A stretch of DNA of 53,280 bases from Oscillatoriales cyanobacterium M59_W2019_021. Lineage in GTDB: Bacteria; Cyanobacteriota; Cyanobacteriia; Cyanobacteriales; Geitlerinemataceae. Where the stretch lies: positions 1-53,280 of the forward strand of contig DVED01000197.1 in assembly GCA_015295945.1 (NCBI GenBank), in the 5' to 3' direction. The notes below the pieces were generated by a model. It had not been told where the DNA came from and searched no databases. It worked only from the letters and a program-made list of their open reading frames with translations. This document shows positions 33,013-44,838 of this stretch, piece by piece (position 1 is the stretch's first letter; the number at the start of each line of letters is the position of its first letter). A program made the position numbers and the translations under genes.

Positions 33013-34068
33013 TTATTCAGGAGGAGTGTTTTCAGGAGGTTCCGAATCTTGCATGTCCGGTTCTGGAGTTTGGATATCCCGGACATCTGCTTCTGCTTCC
33101 GTTTCTGGAGTTTTCGCATCTTCCATCGTCAACTCCAAAAAGACATCTTCCAAACTCGCTTGAACGCGGTGCAACTCGCACAATCCCAACCCCGCCTTCA
33201 CCACCCGAGACGCAATAATTCGACCCGGTTCCGTTCCCGGTTCGGCAGTCATCCGCCACTTGTAACGATTTTCCGGCAGATGCTCCCTCGATAGCAGTTC
33301 GATCGACTTTACCCCCGGTATATTCTCAAACAGCGAACCCAACGACGCCTCTAAACCCGCCACATCCGCCTCCACTTCCACCTCGTATCCCATTCCCCCC
33401 GTCAACCGACCCATCAAATTCTCGATTTTATCGGTTGCCACTACTTGACCCCGTTTGATGATGGCAACTTGGCTGCACGTCATGTTGACTTCTGGCAGAA
33501 TGTGGGTAGAGAGAACGATCGTATGTTCCCCCGCCAAGCTTTTAATCAAATTACGAACTTCGATAATTTGTCGGGGATCGAGACCGACCGTCGGTTCGTC
33601 TAAAATAATCACCGGGGGGTCGTGGACGATCGCCTGAGCGATACCCACCCGCTGGCGAAACCCCTTAGAAAGCTTGCGAATTAAGGTTTTGCGCCGTTCG
33701 GATAACCCGCATCGCGCCACCGCCAAATCCACCCGCTTCGATCGATCTCCGGCTGCCACCCCCTTAATTCGCGCCACGAAATGCAAAAATCCCTCCACCG
33801 TCATATCGGGATACAACGGCGGCGTTTCCGGGAGATAACCGATGCGCTGTCGCACCGCCATCGACTGTTCGTGAACGTCGTATCCCGCAATTCTCGCCGT
33901 GCCGCTGGTGGCGGGCAAAAATCCGGCTAAAATTTGCATCGTCGTGGTTTTGCCTGCACCGTTGGGACCGAGAAACCCTAAAATTTCCCCTTTTTCCACG
34001 TTAAACGTCACATCCCGAATCGCTTGGGTCGTGCCGTAAATTTTACTGAGTTGCTCGACTTCGATCAT
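33013..34068 (-). CDS. ABC exporter ATPase (GldA-like)
   Basis: ATP-binding subunit of the Gld-type exporter. Start set at MIEVEQLSKIYGTTQAIRDVTF; the frame extends 13 codons upstream through spacer repeat (MTNPPTPNPQPQN). Walker A GPNGAGKTT (about residues 38-46), Q-loop YLPETPPLYPDM, signature LSKGFRQRVGIAQAI, Walker B VIILDEPTVGLDP and H-loop STHILPE. After residue 220 comes the C-terminal domain common to GldA/DUF4162 ATPases (GQVVATDKIENLMGRL). The last 38 residues are acidic and Pro-rich (TPETEAEADVRDIQTPEPD). First gene of the cluster. Confidence 0.93.
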   Translation of the reverse strand: MIEVEQLSKIYGTTQAIRDVTFNVEKGEILGFLGPNGAGKTTTMQILAGFLPATSGTARIAGYDVHEQSMAVRQRIGYLPETPPLYPDMTVEGFLHFVARIKGVAAGDRSKRVDLAVARCGLSERRKTLIRKLSKGFRQRVGIAQAIVHDPPVIILDEPTVGLDPRQIIEVRNLIKSLAGEHTIVLSTHILPEVNMTCSQVAIIKRGQVVATDKIENLMGRLTGGMGYEVEVEADVAGLEASLGSLFENIPGVKSIELLSREHLPENRYKWRMTAEPGTEPGRIIASRVVKAGLGLCELHRVQASLEDVFLELTMEDAKTPETEAEADVRDIQTPEPDMQDSEPPENTPPE

Positions 34069-34179
34069 ATTTTGGGGTTGGGGGTTGGGGGTTGGGGGGT
34101 TTGTCACTTGTCCTTCGTCCTTTGTCAGTTGTCACTTGTTTGACCAATGACCAATGACTAATGACTAATGACTAATCGA

Positions 34180-34920
34180 TTAAATCCCCGAACCATCCAA
34201 GAATTCTATAACGGTTTTGTTTTTCAGCTTGCAGTTGGGGGCTGAGGTGGCGGCAGTTGCCGAGACTAGGACTCGTGCTTCGGAGGGCTGACTTTGCAGT
34301 TGCCGGACTTGTTCCTCGAGGGATTCGATGCGATCGACCAAACTGCGGATGACGGCGGCTTCGGAGTCGGGGAGTTGACCGTGTTCGAGGGGGTTGACGC
34401 GAACGCCGGAACGGTAGACCACGCGACCGGGAACCCCCACCACCGTGCAATCGGAAGGAACATCCCGCAAGACGACGGAACCCGCCCCAATGCGCACGTC
34501 GTTGCCGATGTAGAGATTGCCCAAAACTTTCGCCCCGGCACCGACGACGACGTTTTCGCCTAGGGTGGGGTGGCGTTTGCCGCTTTGTTTGCCCGTTCCG
34601 CCGAGGGTGACGCCTTGGTAAATCAAGCAGCCATCGCCGACAATGGCGGTTTCGCCGATGACGACCCCCATACCGTGGTCGATAAACACGCCTTTACCGA
34701 TTTTCGCCCCGGGGTGAATTTCAATTCCGGTGAGGAAGCGGGAAATATGGGAAATCATTCGGGGGATGAAGGGGATGCCGAGATGATGCAGCCAGTGGGC
34801 GAACCGATGGAGTAAGATCGCTTGCAAGCCGGGATAGCAGAACAAGACTTCCAAGCCGTTGCGGGCAGCCGGGTCGCGATCGAAGATTATACGGAAATCA
34901 GCAATAAAGGTATCTAGCAC
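34180..34920 (-). CDS. cysE: Serine O-acetyltransferase
   Basis: First committed step of cysteine synthesis: acetyl-CoA plus serine to O-acetylserine. Start chosen at the GTG encoding (M)[20 protein letters not shown], which matches the family N-terminus; the frame is open to 35049 but the extra 43 residues are not family-like. N-terminal helical domain ([22 protein letters not shown]), then the left-handed beta-helix of hexapeptide repeats: [64 protein letters not shown]-terminal tail after VVYRSGVRV has a short coiled coil ([19 protein letters not shown]) and about 30 variable residues ending near spacer repeats. Confidence 0.95.
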
Positions 34921-35008
34921 GAGATCTCTCAAGGGGATAGACAACCAGAGAGGGAGAATCGCCAGAGGAGGACGCCGCTCCCAAAGACTTTTGTTAAATA
35001 GACTACGG

Positions 35009-35037
35009 ATTATTATATAGTCCGGCGTTGGACTCAA
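35009..35037 (-). promoter_or_regulatory. Possible cysE promoter
   Basis: On the minus strand TTGAGT (35032-35037) is followed by TATAAT (35012-35017) at 14 nt, and by an overlapping AATAAT (35009-35014) at the usual 17 nt. It lies about 90 nt upstream of the GTG chosen for cysE, which argues against the longer reading frame. Confidence 0.4.
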
Positions 35038-35094
35038 GGCTGAGTGCAAACTGAGAAGTTCTTGAGTCTGGGGTGGGTTTTCTGGGGAACCCTG

Positions 35095-39828: not shown

Positions 39829-41769
39829 ATGACTTCCCAAAACACGCAAATTGCTCGTTACGGTTCTTGGAGATCTCCGATTACGTCAGAAGCGATCGTT
39901 GCAGATATAATTCGGCTGGGCGAGATCGCGCCGACGCCGGATGCGGTTTACTGGGTGGAAGGACGACCGCAAGAGGGGGGGCGCAACGTGGTGGTGCGGC
40001 GGACTGCTGACGGGCGAATTGAAGATGTGACGCCGGCGGAGTTCAACGTTCGCACTCGAGTTCACGAGTACGGCGGGGGGGCGTTTCTGGTGGATGGTGA
40101 GACGGTGTACTTTGTCAATTTTGCTGACGGGCGATTGTACCGACAAGTGGTAGGCGGGGAACCGGAAGCGATAACCCCCGAGGGTCAGTGGCGTTATGCA
40201 GATTTTGCGATCGATCGCCCTCGAGATCGCCTCCTTGGCATTCGCGAAGACCATACGGGGGAAGGGGAAGCGGTCAATACGATCGTCGGGATCGGGTTGG
40301 ATGGCACGATCGAAGTTTTAGTTTCCGGTAACGATTTCTACGCTTCTCCCTGCCTGAGTCCCGATGGCACGAAATTGGCTTGGCTGACGTGGAACCATCC
40401 CCAAATGCCGTGGGACGGTACCGAGTTGTGGGTGGCGGAGATTCGGGAAGACGGATCGCTGGGGGAGGCGCAATTCGTTTCTGGGGGAACGAACGAGTCG
40501 GTGTTTCAGCCGCAGTGGTCGCCGGATGGGGTCTTGTATTTCGTGAGCGATCGCGCGGATTGGTGGAATCTCTATCGCTGGCAAAATGGCGCGGTAGAAC
40601 CCCTCTATCCCCTAGATGCGGAGTTTGCCACGCCGCAATGGGTGTTCGGGATGTCTACCTGTGCGTTTGACGAAGAGGGTCGCTTGGTGTGTACTTATAC
40701 GCAGCAAGGAACCTGGCAACTGGCGATTCTCGATCCGGCAACCCCGCATTTGCAGAATATCGAAACGCCGTATACGGAAATTGCCGGGTTGAAGGCGATC
40801 GGCAATAATGTCCTATTTTTGGGCGCGTCTCCTACCGTGGCAACGGCGATCGTGCAACTTAACTTAGAAACGGGTCAGCACGATATCCTGCGCCAATCTA
40901 GCAGTTTGGACATCGATCCGGGCTACATCTCTATCCCGCAGCCGATCGAGTTTCCCACGGAAAACGGGCTGACGGCCTACGCTTTCTACTATCCTCCCAC
41001 GAATAAAGATTACGCCGCTCCCGAGGGGGAAAAACCGCCCCTGTTGGTGAAAAGCCACGGCGGACCGACGGCAAGTACCTCCACGAGTCTGCGATTGTCG
41101 ATACAGTATTGGACGAGTCGGGGGTTTGCTTTCTTAGATGTGAACTACGGCGGCAGTACCGGGTACGGACGCACGTACCGCCAGCGATTGCAAGGGAATT
41201 GGGGAATTGTGGATGTGGACGATTGCGTCAATGGGGCGCGATATCTCGCCGATCGCGGTTGGGTGGATGGCGAGCGGATGGCGATCTCCGGAGGCAGTGC
41301 CGGAGGCTATACGACCCTAGCGGCGCTGACATTTCGCGATGTGTTTAAAGCGGGAGCGAGTTATTACGGCATCAGCGATTTGGAGGTTCTCGCCACCGAT
41401 ACCCACAAATTCGAGTCGCGCTATCTCGATGGGTTGATTGGGGCGTATCCGGAACAAAAACAACTTTATATCGATCGATCGCCCATTCATTTTACCGATC
41501 GTCTCTCCTGTCCGGTTATCTTTTTCCAAGGACTCGAGGATAAAGTCGTTCCCCCCAATCAAGCGGAAATGATGGTGGAAGCGCTACGCCAGAAAGGACT
41601 CCCCGTGGCTTACGTTCCCTTTGAAGGCGAACAGCACGGTTTCCGGAAGGCGGAAAATATCAAACGCGCTTTAGATGGAGAGTTTTATTTCTATTCCCGC
41701 ATTTTCGGTTACGATCCGGCGGAGGATTTAGAACCGATCGAGATTGAAAATCTTGAGGGTCATGGGTAA
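39829..41769 (+). CDS. S9-family serine peptidase (prolyl oligopeptidase / acylaminoacyl peptidase type)
   Basis: A 646-residue cytoplasmic peptidase. Residues 1-380 form a seven-bladed propeller ([78 protein letters not shown]) that filters substrates. Residues 400-646 are the alpha/beta hydrolase domain: [10 protein letters not shown] oxyanion region, nucleophile Ser490 in [11 protein letters not shown], Asp571 in [11 protein letters not shown] and His603 in GEQHGFRK, so the triad is complete. No signal peptide. Hydrolyses short peptides. ATG start matches homologous N-termini ([11 protein letters not shown]). Confidence 0.95.
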
Positions 41770-41924: not shown

Positions 41925-42566
41925 TTACGGGATAGGGTTTTTTGCAGGTGCTGCATTGGGAGAAGGATAGAAACGGGTGCAGTACACCACATTGGTCACC
42001 ACTCCGTTTTGACCGGAGGGAATGTACCCTTTTGCCGGGTGGTTGATGGGTTGCCAGATAACGCCTGCCGTATCCGTCGTCGAGACGCCATCGAGGCGAA
42101 TCACGCCACCGTCGTTGACGACAGCTAGTTGTTGACCGTCATAGCTGGGGCGATCGTAAACGCTCAAACCACCTCGAAAGCGAACGTTCCGCAAGTTCGG
42201 ATCGTTCGCACCGCACCGAGCGGGAATGACGTTGGGATTGCTCGAGACGGGGGGAATGGGGGTCGGAGTCGGAGTCGGACTGGGAACTTGTGTGTTGCAA
42301 TCGGGATCGAGATAGGATTTCCAAACGTAGCCTCGATACTCGGTGGTGGCGATCGGCTGCCAATTTCCCGCAGCCGGAGCGACCAACCAAACGCGAGTTC
42401 CATTGGGTATGGTAGCAATCACTGCTCCGTCTGGCATTTCACGCAGATTGAGCGGCGATCCAGCCGTACAAACTCGAGATTCCGGGGGGGTGGGTTGCGC
42501 CTGAACCAGTGCGGGCGCCAACATCGGTGCAAACAAAGCTGCGCTAAGGAGCAGACGAAGTTTCAT
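41925..42566 (-). CDS. Secreted SH3-type domain protein
   Basis: A 213-residue exported protein: signal peptide MKLRLLLSAALFAPMLAPALVQA (cleavage after AQA), then an SH3b-like domain (CTAGSPLNLREMPDGAVIATIPNGTRVWLV...GYVWKSYLDPDCN), a Pro/Thr linker, and a second, more diverged SH3-like unit (LRNVRFRGGLSVYDRPSYDGQQLAVVNDGGVIRLDG...VIWQPINHPAKGYIPSG). SH3b domains bind cell-wall peptides or polysaccharides; no catalytic part is attached. Start supported by GAGGAGAACCC before the ATG. Confidence 0.85.
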   Translation of the reverse strand: MKLRLLLSAALFAPMLAPALVQAQPTPPESRVCTAGSPLNLREMPDGAVIATIPNGTRVWLVAPAAGNWQPIATTEYRGYVWKSYLDPDCNTQVPSPTPTPTPIPPVSSNPNVIPARCGANDPNLRNVRFRGGLSVYDRPSYDGQQLAVVNDGGVIRLDGVSTTDTAGVIWQPINHPAKGYIPSGQNGVVTNVVYCTRFYPSPNAAPAKNPIP

Positions 42567-42866
42567 GGGTTCTCCTCACAGTTTACGCGGATGACGTAGA
42601 TGGCTTTTAGTTTATCAGAATCGCGAGGAATGAAGAGATTGGGGGCGGTGGAGAGAGCAAGGGAGGCTTTCTTGAGCAGAGGGAGCTTTCTTGAGCAGGG
42701 GAGGCAGAGGGAGCAGGGGAGGCAGGGGAAGCAGAGGGAGAAGATGTTTGCCAAATCCCAAATGATTCAAAGTTACTACCCGATCGAAATCTTCTTTAAA
42801 TCTTTACATCCGTATTTTTACGGATATAATGAGGGCGTTGAGGTGAAATAAATCGGATAAATTGTA
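42567..42866. other. Spacer (300 bp) with purine-rich repeats
   Basis: GAGGCAGAGGGAGCAGGGGAGGC-type purine repeats fill 42659-42740 (the complement of CCTGCCTCCCC tracts elsewhere). An 83-codon frame (42600-42851) is only a translation of these repeats. The last 80 bp before the small gene is AT-rich and may hold its promoter; no clear hexamers. Confidence 0.5.
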
Positions 42867-43085
42867 ATGATACCCTCCGTGCAACTCATTCCGGGGGCGC
42901 TTTCTGAGATGATCGCAACGGTCGCTGAAACTAAGGTTTTGACCCGAGCCGATCGCTACGGATTGATGGCTGCCCTTCTCGACGAATCCCTGAGTGAAGA
43001 AGAACTCGAAGCGACCAATCGGCTGGTGAGAGCCGTTTTAAAAGGTCGTGTTAAAGTTCTCGATCGCATTTCCGTGGAAGTTTAG
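42867..43085 (+). CDS. Small cyanobacterial protein (paralogue of 37496-37726)
   Basis: 72 residues: MIPSVQLIPGALSEMIATVAE followed by LTRADRYGLMAALLDESLSEEELEATNRLVRAVLKG, the same core as the 37496-37726 product. All-helical, acidic centre, basic end (KGRVKVLDRISVEV). Function unknown. Its stop codon overlaps the end of the convergent CpcT-like gene by 4 nt. Confidence 0.75.
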   Translation: MIPSVQLIPGALSEMIATVAETKVLTRADRYGLMAALLDESLSEEELEATNRLVRAVLKGRVKVLDRISVEV

Positions 43086-44311
43086 GGCGAATCGATCGCG
43101 ATCGGACGATACAAATAAGCTCCCGTTTCCGAACCCGCCACTTGGTTGCCTGCCCCGTCGTACCAGCGTTCCCACAAATCCAAACCGTCCCGAGAAAATC
43201 GGGCGTTGATCGTCACCGCTTCCGACCCGCGAAAATTGCTGGGACAGCCTCCCTCTGGCGTCGAACCGATAAAGACGCCCTCCTCGAAGCGAAAGACGAT
43301 CGTGCATTCTGCGTTGCCGATGGCATCGGCAGGAACTAGGCGTTCTGCCGGGGGACGATCGCAAAAGTTATCCCATCGGTCCCCTTCTAATTTGTAGGAT
43401 GCCAGTTCGATCGCCCCGCTTTCTGCCGATCGGCGAAATTGTACCAATCGCTGGCTGGCAAATTGCAATTCTGGCGAATTCGATGCCTGTTCGGACACCA
43501 GAATGGGGGTCGTTTCGGGAAAGGGACTGTCGGAGACCGCTGCCGGACAGTTATGGAAGCGAACGGGTAAGAAACTGCTGTCTGCGGCAACTTGTGCGGA
43601 ATTGTCGAACGCACCGTTAAAGAGTTGGGCGATGGCGTTGACTTGGGGATCTTGGGCGATGGGGTCGATATCGCGATACTGATAGGAATCGTCCTGCGCC
43701 CCCCACACTTGGTTCCCCTCGGCATCGAACCCCCGATCCCAAGTTTCCATCGTCATTTCGGTGAGTCGGACTTGGTTGGTCACTCGCACCGCGCCTCGGT
43801 AGTTTGCCGGACAGCCTTCTTCCGGTGTCGTTCCCCAGTAACCCTCGCCGTCTTTTTGCAGGGCAATGGTGCAGACTTTTTCCCCTAAGTCGGGAACGGA
43901 GACGATGCGATCGACTTCCGGTTTGTCGCACAGTCCGATCCACGCTTCGGGGTTAGCGGGTTTGTAGGAAATTGACTCCACCCCCAAATTATCGGTGCTG
44001 GGGGAAATTTCTAAAAAGCGCTGGCGGTAGGGACGATCGAGTTGCAGGGAGAGGGCTTGTTCTTGATAGAGAAAGGTCGCATCGGTATCGGCAACGCGGA
44101 TGGGACAAGTGGTCATGCGCACGTCCGCAGCGTCGCGATCGATCGCCGCTCGGGCAGATGTATCCATCGTTCCTACCAAATAAGACGCCACTTCGCGAAC
44201 TTGCGCGTCGGCATCGATCAATTGCCCCAACACAGACGGCATCGAGACCAAGCCTAGGGACAATCCCCAACCGAATAACGCAACGCGGGTAAACTCCATC
44301 GCAAATCCCAT
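43082..44311 (-). CDS. Exported tandem CpcT/CpeT-like protein
   Basis: About 409 residues with two copies of the CpcT/CpeT bilin-lyase fold. Copy 1 (about 38-210) shows VASYLVGTMDTSARAAID, YQEQALSLQLDRPYRQRFLEI, CPANYRGAVRVTNQ and the classic TWDRGFDAEGNQVWGA. Copy 2 (about 215-408) shows IAQLFNGAFDNSAQVAAD, SEQASNSPELQFASQRLVQF, CPSNFRGSEAV and LWERWYDGAGNQVAGS. CpcT attaches phycocyanobilin to Cys-153 of phycocyanin in the cytoplasm, but this protein starts with a signal-peptide-like segment (FTRVALFGWGLSLGLVSMPSVLGQ) and is twice the usual length, so a role as a normal lyase is doubtful. Start at ATG 44311, preceded by AAGGGA. Confidence 0.82.
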   Translation of the reverse strand: MGFAMEFTRVALFGWGLSLGLVSMPSVLGQLIDADAQVREVASYLVGTMDTSARAAIDRDAADVRMTTCPIRVADTDATFLYQEQALSLQLDRPYRQRFLEISPSTDNLGVESISYKPANPEAWIGLCDKPEVDRIVSVPDLGEKVCTIALQKDGEGYWGTTPEEGCPANYRGAVRVTNQVRLTEMTMETWDRGFDAEGNQVWGAQDDSYQYRDIDPIAQDPQVNAIAQLFNGAFDNSAQVAADSSFLPVRFHNCPAAVSDSPFPETTPILVSEQASNSPELQFASQRLVQFRRSAESGAIELASYKLEGDRWDNFCDRPPAERLVPADAIGNAECTIVFRFEEGVFIGSTPEGGCPSNFRGSEAVTINARFSRDGLDLWERWYDGAGNQVAGSETGAYLYRPIAIDSP

Positions 44312-44385
44312 TCTCAATCCCTTGACCCCAGTTAATTTTGGTGTTAATCATCATACTGAGATCGAGAATATTACTAAGATTAACC

Positions 44386-44838
44386 ATGGGTCAACGTACC
44401 GTTAAAACCTGGGTAGGAACTGCGGCGATCGTCGCGTTGGCGATCGGACTGGGAACGGGTTGCACTCGCCGCAACACCGAGACCCCAACCGAAGTGCAGA
44501 ATGCCGAGTCGGTCGATCCCATCACAGCCTACGCCCGATCGGTACTGGATATCGAACCCATCCGCCAACAAGCTTACGAGCAAATTGTTGCAGAGACAGC
44601 GGAGTCCTCGCAACCTCCTGCCGTGGTCTGTAGCGATCGCGATACCATCCTGCCCTTACGCGGCGAAGTCAAAAAAATTGCCGTCGAATACTGCAACCAA
44701 GCTAAGGCAATCGCTGAAGAAAATGGGATCGACGCCCCACAATTTAACAAGCTCGCTCAACAATTAGAAAGCGATCCCATGCTCAAAGAAGCGATTAAAG
44801 CCGAATTGTTGGAACTGCAACAACCTAATGGACGGTAA
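44386..44838 (+). CDS. DUF4168-like lipoprotein
   Basis: 150 residues from ATG 44386 (the frame is open 16 codons further upstream). N-terminal signal GTAAIVALAIGLGTGC with a lipobox ending LGTGC, so a lipid-anchored periplasmic protein. The mature part (ITAYARSVLDIEPIRQQAYEQIV; FNKLAQQLESDPMLKEAIKAELLEL) has the helical layout of the DUF4168 family common in cyanobacteria. Two Cys residues in AVVCSDRDTIL and AVEYCNQAK could pair. Function unknown. Divergent from the CpcT-like gene with 74 bp between starts. Confidence 0.75.
   Translation: MGQRTVKTWVGTAAIVALAIGLGTGCTRRNTETPTEVQNAESVDPITAYARSVLDIEPIRQQAYEQIVAETAESSQPPAVVCSDRDTILPLRGEVKKIAVEYCNQAKAIAEENGIDAPQFNKLAQQLESDPMLKEAIKAELLELQQPNGR

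Follow-up and report, generated by a model that had tools for sequence, protein, structure and literature searches.

The gene and its surroundings

The window is the whole stretch of 53,280 nucleotides of contig DVED01000197.1 from Oscillatoriales cyanobacterium M59_W2019_021, and positions are given on its forward strand. The CpcT-like gene (Table 1) occupies an open frame that extends in full over 43082..44317 of the minus strand, with TTG 44317, ATG 44311 and ATG 44299 as start candidates. A CpcT/CpeT-like gene had been placed at 43082-44311 in a preliminary description of this DNA, and was confirmed there; that span takes in the stop codon and begins at the second start candidate. The two lyase-like domains described for it were recovered as two stretches of the Pfam family PF06206 (CpeT), scoring 280 bits together. 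Searched separately against the same profile, domain 1 reached 170.8 bits (E 3.5e-50) and domain 2 113.9 bits (E 1e-32), the cut-off being 21, and NCBIfam held no model matching the whole protein or either domain. The AlphaFold model of the full protein had a pLDDT of 89.8 and a pTM of 0.80. Elsewhere in the source genome (4.99 Mb, 212 contigs) there are three more CpeT genes, each single-domain, and three bilin reductases (PF05996); the source organism therefore makes bilins, and its ordinary lyase candidates are other genes.

Table 1. Coordinates of the CpcT-like gene, its parts and its two neighbours in the window
Feature	Position	Strand	Description	Basis
CDS, 405 aa from ATG 44299	43082..44299	minus	two-domain CpcT/CpeT-like protein, probably exported	
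Signal-peptide-like N-terminus	44225..44299	minus	MEFTRVALFGWGLSLGLVSMPSVLG, putative cleavage before Q	hydropathy and small-x-small site; segment in 54/55 clade rows
Domain 1	43673..44194	minus	PF06206; closest fold CRL 6LIX, Z 24.7	profile match
Domain 2	43106..43633	minus	PF06206, degenerate pocket, four Cys all kept; fold nearest CRL, Z 21.8; pLDDT 92.3 (modelled alone)	profile match
Divergent neighbour	44338..44838	plus	DUF4168 protein, lipobox-like GTGC, likely start ATG 44386	lipobox and start by eye
Downstream neighbour	41925..42566	minus	SH3_3 protein, signal-like N-terminus	N-terminus by eye

The gene is thus flanked by two further genes for apparently exported proteins (window 41925-44838). 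Neither the SH3_3 nor the DUF4168 neighbour had a match in the 50 other regions compared, and no ORF family shared by at least 4 regions included a window neighbour (target found in 29 of 31 regions). Four ORFs of the window did match those 50 regions, namely an ABC-type ATPase (33013-34107) in nine of them and 34180-35049, the pyruvate-kinase-like gene and the S9 peptidase gene in one each; a reading of these matches as conserved context was rejected and they were taken as chance. In nine regions (L043, L044, L046, L047, L049, L050, L052, L056 and L064) same-strand response-regulator/PP2C-type and kinase-like ORFs, named by eye, follow the exported gene, and eight of the nine also have a DnaA-like ORF beside it; the window has no such neighbours. 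Outer-membrane machinery was not seen next to the gene in the regions compared; for other phyla this result is weak, the target having been kept in 9/20 regions. No pathway gene was recognised beside the exported gene in the regions read. A plasmid search gave one weak match (Nostoc plasmid NZ_CP040298), which agrees in length and in the place of the match with the contig of L073 (G387:C2, 215845 bases), and a phage search 24 records, of which the 20 listed cover 31–34% of the query at 30–33% identity.

N-terminus and export

The N-terminal segment MEFTRVALFGWGLSLGLVSMPSVLGQ is signal-peptide-like, with an 11-residue mean hydropathy of 1.75 and a possible cleavage between VLG and Q. The case for export is built on hydropathy, on small-x-small sites and on how well the segment is conserved in orthologues. 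A row was scored as carrying the segment when an 11-residue mean of at least 1.6 was found upstream of the first helix and was followed by a small-x-small site; the score was the best over all possible start codons, which favours detection in both groups compared. Segment and site were present in 54 of the 55 rows of the exported cyanobacterial clade, the single exception (L087) beginning at a contig end; of the 57 genomes, G162, G378 and the G322 fragment are not among these rows, and G114 contributes two copies. Among 20 cytoplasmic-type paralogues, which were hand-picked and not random (the better-scoring paralogue matches among 388 genomes and the source genome's three), one reached the hydropathy threshold, none had the small-x-small site as well, and one (L104) was unscorable. 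A signal-like segment was also present in all 23 exported rows of other bacteria, 10 of them with a lipobox-like site, and in all three rows of a further exported cyanobacterial group, EXP2 (L073, L075, L083).

The signal-like N-terminus of the preliminary description is borne out by these data, and its view of export as unusual for the family is not: a whole branch of PF06206 looks exported, and export is, as far as these N-termini indicate, a trait of the clade and not a quirk of the source gene. That description had also named two findings that would speak against export, a start downstream of the hydrophobic segment and homologues that lack export signals. For the first, an in-frame ATG (44242) does sit at the end of the segment, so that a start without the signal is formally possible, but 54 of 55 orthologue rows carry the segment in frame. 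For the second, the close homologues carry the segment, and it is the distant, cytoplasmic-type paralogues that lack it. In all probability the protein is Sec-exported, and its destination is probably the periplasm.

Distribution of the exported branch

In a scan of 388 genomes of the class, with at most 4 candidates scored per genome, 57 genomes (source included) held a match at 43% identity or more and E 4e-28 or better. Identities within this clade are 43–57% (the source itself aside), and the next matches, at about 30% and E 1.7e-14 or worse, are the paralogues; a short fragment in G217 is the sole exception to the gap between the two. The two other genomes sampled from the source family (G022 and G184) lack the gene. 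When one genome for each of 84,980 species was scanned, 102 relatives were found and the best 80 kept; 23 of these 80 (L162-L184) come from Planctomycetota, Bacteroidota, Acidobacteriota, proteobacteria and others, and each of their 23 genomes has exactly one PF06206 match. Single absences in these genomes may be gaps, 22 of the 23 being labelled MAG or uncultured bin. In the class of G404 (genome of L178, Pararhodonellum) PF06206 was found in 23 of 198 genomes, and the N-termini of ten loci were signal-like by eye.

Two loci from the scan deserve separate mention. L128, labelled Candidatus Gracilibacteria, is 55% identical to the query and a typical exported cyanobacterial CpcT-like gene; it is probably a mis-binned contig and was kept out of trees and counts. 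A single open frame, L167:1360-3963 from a Chitinophagales MAG, joins a prolyl oligopeptidase (PF02897 and PF00326) to an exported CpcT-like domain, and L221 has this fusion as well. In the window, too, a peptidase gene of family S9 (39829-41769) lies roughly 1.3 kb away from the CpcT-like gene; this parallel is possibly chance.

Relationship to CRL and to the lyases

The best PDB sequence match of the source protein was CRL (6LIX, Arabidopsis AT5G51020; E 6.6e-20), with CpcT at 2.6e-4. A profile of the exported clade gave CRL 110 bits versus 44 for CpcT, and a profile of the paralogues gave CpcT 268 bits versus 67 for CRL. Foldseek with the AlphaFold model placed CRL first (E 2e-14). For domain 1 the fold comparison returned Z 24.7, 2.1 Å and 30% identity with CRL and Z 21.4, 2.5 Å and 18% identity with CpcT, and for domain 2, folded alone, CRL again came first with Z 21.8, CpcT having Z 19.8.

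Two careful trees were built from 45 and 31 hand-picked rows of 110 (the row sets overlap and the alignments differ), together with a quick tree of 81 rows from which domain 2 of L008 was left out. CRL is a long branch and the sole eukaryotic row in these trees; neither careful tree holds domain 2 or EXP2 rows, and the second is also without L168. In both careful trees the exported rows and CRL were split from the lyase clade at 100/100, and domain 1 stood apart from the 13 lyase-clade rows of the first and the 9 of the second, each at 100/100, which places it outside the CpcT/CpeT clade. CRL joined the exported cyanobacterial clade at 100/94 in the first and 98/99 in the second. In AU tests the alternative of CRL with the lyases was not rejected (p 0.089 and 0.13, respectively), and on the quick tree it scored higher (p 0.622). 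An arrangement with CRL outside the group of the exported cyanobacterial clade plus L164, L166, L168 and L180 was rejected in the first careful tree (p 0.027); on the quick tree, a higher score went to the arrangement in which the exported rows of cyanobacteria were kept together and CRL was left out of their group (p 0.917), which fits CRL as sister or elsewhere. Since better trees had escaped the free search, the quick trees were set aside.

The nearest solved relative is CRL, not CpcT, and on this sequence, fold, the extra cysteine pair described below and the two careful trees agree, although the AU tests do not reject CRL with the lyases. The source protein is very likely not a phycobilisome lyase.

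Cysteines, pocket residues and the second domain

Domain 1 contains Cys 65, 124, 143 and 163 (numbered from ATG 44299), and all four are kept in domain 2. In the comparison of rows, all 56 exported cyanobacterial rows, no two of them identical in sequence, had both C64 and C126, as did both domains of the source protein, L007 and L008, the three EXP2 rows, CRL and L168. Among the other exported rows (n = 23) one had both and two had C126 alone; among the lyase rows (n = 21) none had both and three had C64 alone. C145 and C165 were both found in 56/56, 23/23, 3/3 (EXP2) and 21/21 (lyase) rows; CRL is without either, and domain 2 of L008 is without C165 alone. C64 and C126 mostly occur jointly, and C145 and C165 have both gone from CRL; each domain therefore probably forms two disulfides, in domain 1 presumably C65-C124 and C143-C163. 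The extra pair would fit an oxidising compartment.

The preliminary description had proposed to align the residues lining the CpcT pocket, and here the two domains part. Domain 1 keeps E80, Q81, Y91, R92, R94, D188, G190 and W199 (numbered from ATG 44299), and thus the E, Q, Y, R, R and D of the pocket, which in the alignment (E82, Q83, Y93, R94, R96 and D190) are invariant in 56/56 exported cyanobacterial and 23/23 other exported rows. For CpcT, the study of structure 4O4S is reported to show arginines at the pocket entrance holding the bilin propionates. Domain 2 is without the Y, one R and the D (Y to A, first R to S, D to E) and has further changes of G to W and W to A; the pocket losses are identical in domain 2 of the source protein and of L007.

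A second domain was found in G000 and G098 (47% identity) and, very divergent, in G018, so that with 3 of 388 genomes it is the double domain, rather than export, that is the rare trait of this protein. In a tree of 31 hand-picked rows (of 110 prepared) the domain 2 copies cluster at 93/81 on a branch that was not starred and join EXP2 at 96/94, the copies of domain 1 fall with the single-domain exported clade at 96/95, and domain 2 of L008 forms a very long branch.

Bilin genes and fold neighbours

No bilin reductase (PF05996) was found in any of the 23 non-cyanobacterial genomes with an exported member, and the heme oxygenase family PF01126, which does not cover every heme-degrading enzyme, was found in 2 of the 23; a Synechococcus elongatus control was positive in both searches. 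Taken jointly, 0/23 for bilin reductase is hard to explain by MAG gaps, and with these two counts a self-made bilin is unlikely as the ligand in those genomes. Since the pocket is conserved there too, its residues alone are no evidence for bilins. Bilin binding, which the preliminary description had suggested as a role outside the cytoplasm, therefore finds no support as a general function; with its three reductases the source organism could still use a bilin.

The fatty molecules that the preliminary description had also named may be a ligand: beyond the PF06206 family the fold is nearest to nitrobindin and its relatives (Z ~10) and to fatty-acid-binding proteins (Z ~7, where values below 8 may reflect a common arrangement only). 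Neither was adopted as the family of the protein, the Z-scores being middling and the identities 4–11%. Domain 2 gave weak fold matches to the S-type lyase 4TQ2 (Z 9.7), to heme nitrobindin (Z ~10) and to UnaG (Z 6.7), a bilirubin binder.

Proposed function and alternatives

We propose, at a probability of roughly 0.5, that the gene encodes a Sec-exported periplasmic tandem calyx protein of the CpcT fold, belonging to an exported branch of PF06206 that stands apart from the lyases and is nearest to CRL. Domain 1 would hold a hydrophobic carboxylate ligand non-covalently, the chances of its pocket having a ligand being about even, and domain 2 would no longer bind that ligand and would serve stability or partner contact. 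CRL has been connected with plastid division and with OEP80 complexes, a smaller OEP80 complex being reported in crl plants. Omp85 and TamB, whose counterparts in plastids are OEP80 and TIC236, face the periplasm. According to two articles that cite other work (PMC12373785, PMC11377289), CRL interacts with OEP80 and supports the OEP80 complex, and it interacts with TIC236, a TamB homologue. Because CRL is the nearest relative with known biology and is tied to both proteins, the source protein may tentatively be seen, by analogy, as a periplasmic adaptor or ligand-binding factor that would act at the periplasmic face of the outer membrane, much as CRL reportedly acts for OEP80/TIC236 in plastids. 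A wider proposal, which we regard as unlikely, is that the exported 'chromophore lyase CpcT/CpeT' would be an unrecognised outer-membrane accessory factor (Omp85/TamB side) in diderms of several phyla, CRL having come from the exported branch of cyanobacteria or being its sister, and the cytoplasmic lyases being cousins that use the calyx for bilins.

The main rival to an outer-membrane-side role is a plain carrier: in the periplasm the protein would carry or scavenge a hydrophobic carboxylate (a fatty acid, a carotenoid derivative or heme) and would have no link to outer-membrane assembly. It would account for calyx residues kept in every exported row compared (56/56 and 23/23) although bilin reductase is 0/23, and nitrobindin relatives and fatty-acid-binding proteins are the next folds; however, as noted, Z below 8 may reflect a common arrangement only, and no pathway gene was recognised alongside in the regions read. 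We consider it somewhat improbable. Further down stands the reading of the preliminary description, an exported binder of a bilin or other tetrapyrrole, or a lyase acting on a bilin protein of the periplasm. In its favour, both arginines and the Asp of CpcT are kept in domain 1, the source organism has three bilin reductases and the weak fold matches of domain 2 include 4TQ2, heme nitrobindin and UnaG, but the same residues are invariant in 23 homologues whose genomes have 0/23 bilin reductase and 2/23 PF01126, and the clade is split from the lyases at 100/100, which makes this reading improbable. The view of domain 2 as a decayed, functionless remnant would agree with the pocket residues lost in the source protein and L007 and with the very long branch of the L008 copy; it is harder to reconcile with copies 47% identical between two genomes of different families, with the same substitutions and all four Cys in both, and with a pLDDT of 92.3, and we think it distinctly improbable. 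A cytoplasmic protein made from ATG 44242, with the hydrophobic stretch untranslated, has that in-frame codon in its favour and is very improbable indeed, given the in-frame segment in 54/55 orthologue rows and an extra cysteine pair that would suit an oxidising compartment.

Comparison with known systems

PF06206 and CRL are already known. In the open-access literature searched no report was found of an exported PF06206 branch, of its spread to bilin-less bacteria, of its closeness to CRL or of the two-domain form; subscription papers may hold one. One study could not assign the eukaryotic sequences to any of four lyase groups (PMC2408579), another dates CRL to terrestrialisation (PMC11135702), and the biochemical job and the origin of CRL look unsettled. 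If the relationship proposed here is true, an exported cyanobacterial sister branch would be a bacterial counterpart of CRL open to knock-out and assay, and exported PF06206 genes in bilin-less bacteria would probably be misnamed as chromophore lyases.

The T-type phycobiliprotein lyase CpcT (4O4O, 4O4S) resembles the source protein in fold (Z 21.4), in Pfam family and in the pocket residues of domain 1; lyases of this type differ in having the C64/C126 pair in 0/21 rows, in forming a separate clade (100/100), in their single domain and in the signal-like segment (1/20 paralogues). Cyanophage CpeT (5HI8) has the same Pfam-family fold (Z 17.6) but a chain of 136 residues. The exported single-domain PF06206 proteins of other bacteria (L162-L184) share the signal or lipobox-like N-terminus, the pocket residues and C145/C165; unlike the source protein they have the C64/C126 pair in L168 alone and no second PF06206 domain, and bilin reductase is absent from 23/23 of their genomes. 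EXP2 is alike in its signal-like N-terminus, its four Cys and its grouping with domain 2 (96/94), and unlike in having one domain, a degenerate pocket and a PEP-CTERM-like tail seen by eye (e.g. IPEPSFILGILALG), for which the NCBIfam matches of L073 and L083 were weak and below cut-off. CRL, which a table of PMC10542568 gives as a signal-anchored protein of the plastid outer envelope, differs from the source protein in being eukaryotic, in that location, in its single domain (PDB chain) and in the loss of C145/C165; it shares the C64/C126 pair, the WDRGFD...QVWG motif and the pocket residues except for Y93F. It groups with the exported cyanobacterial clade in both careful trees, although the AU tests do not reject another placement.
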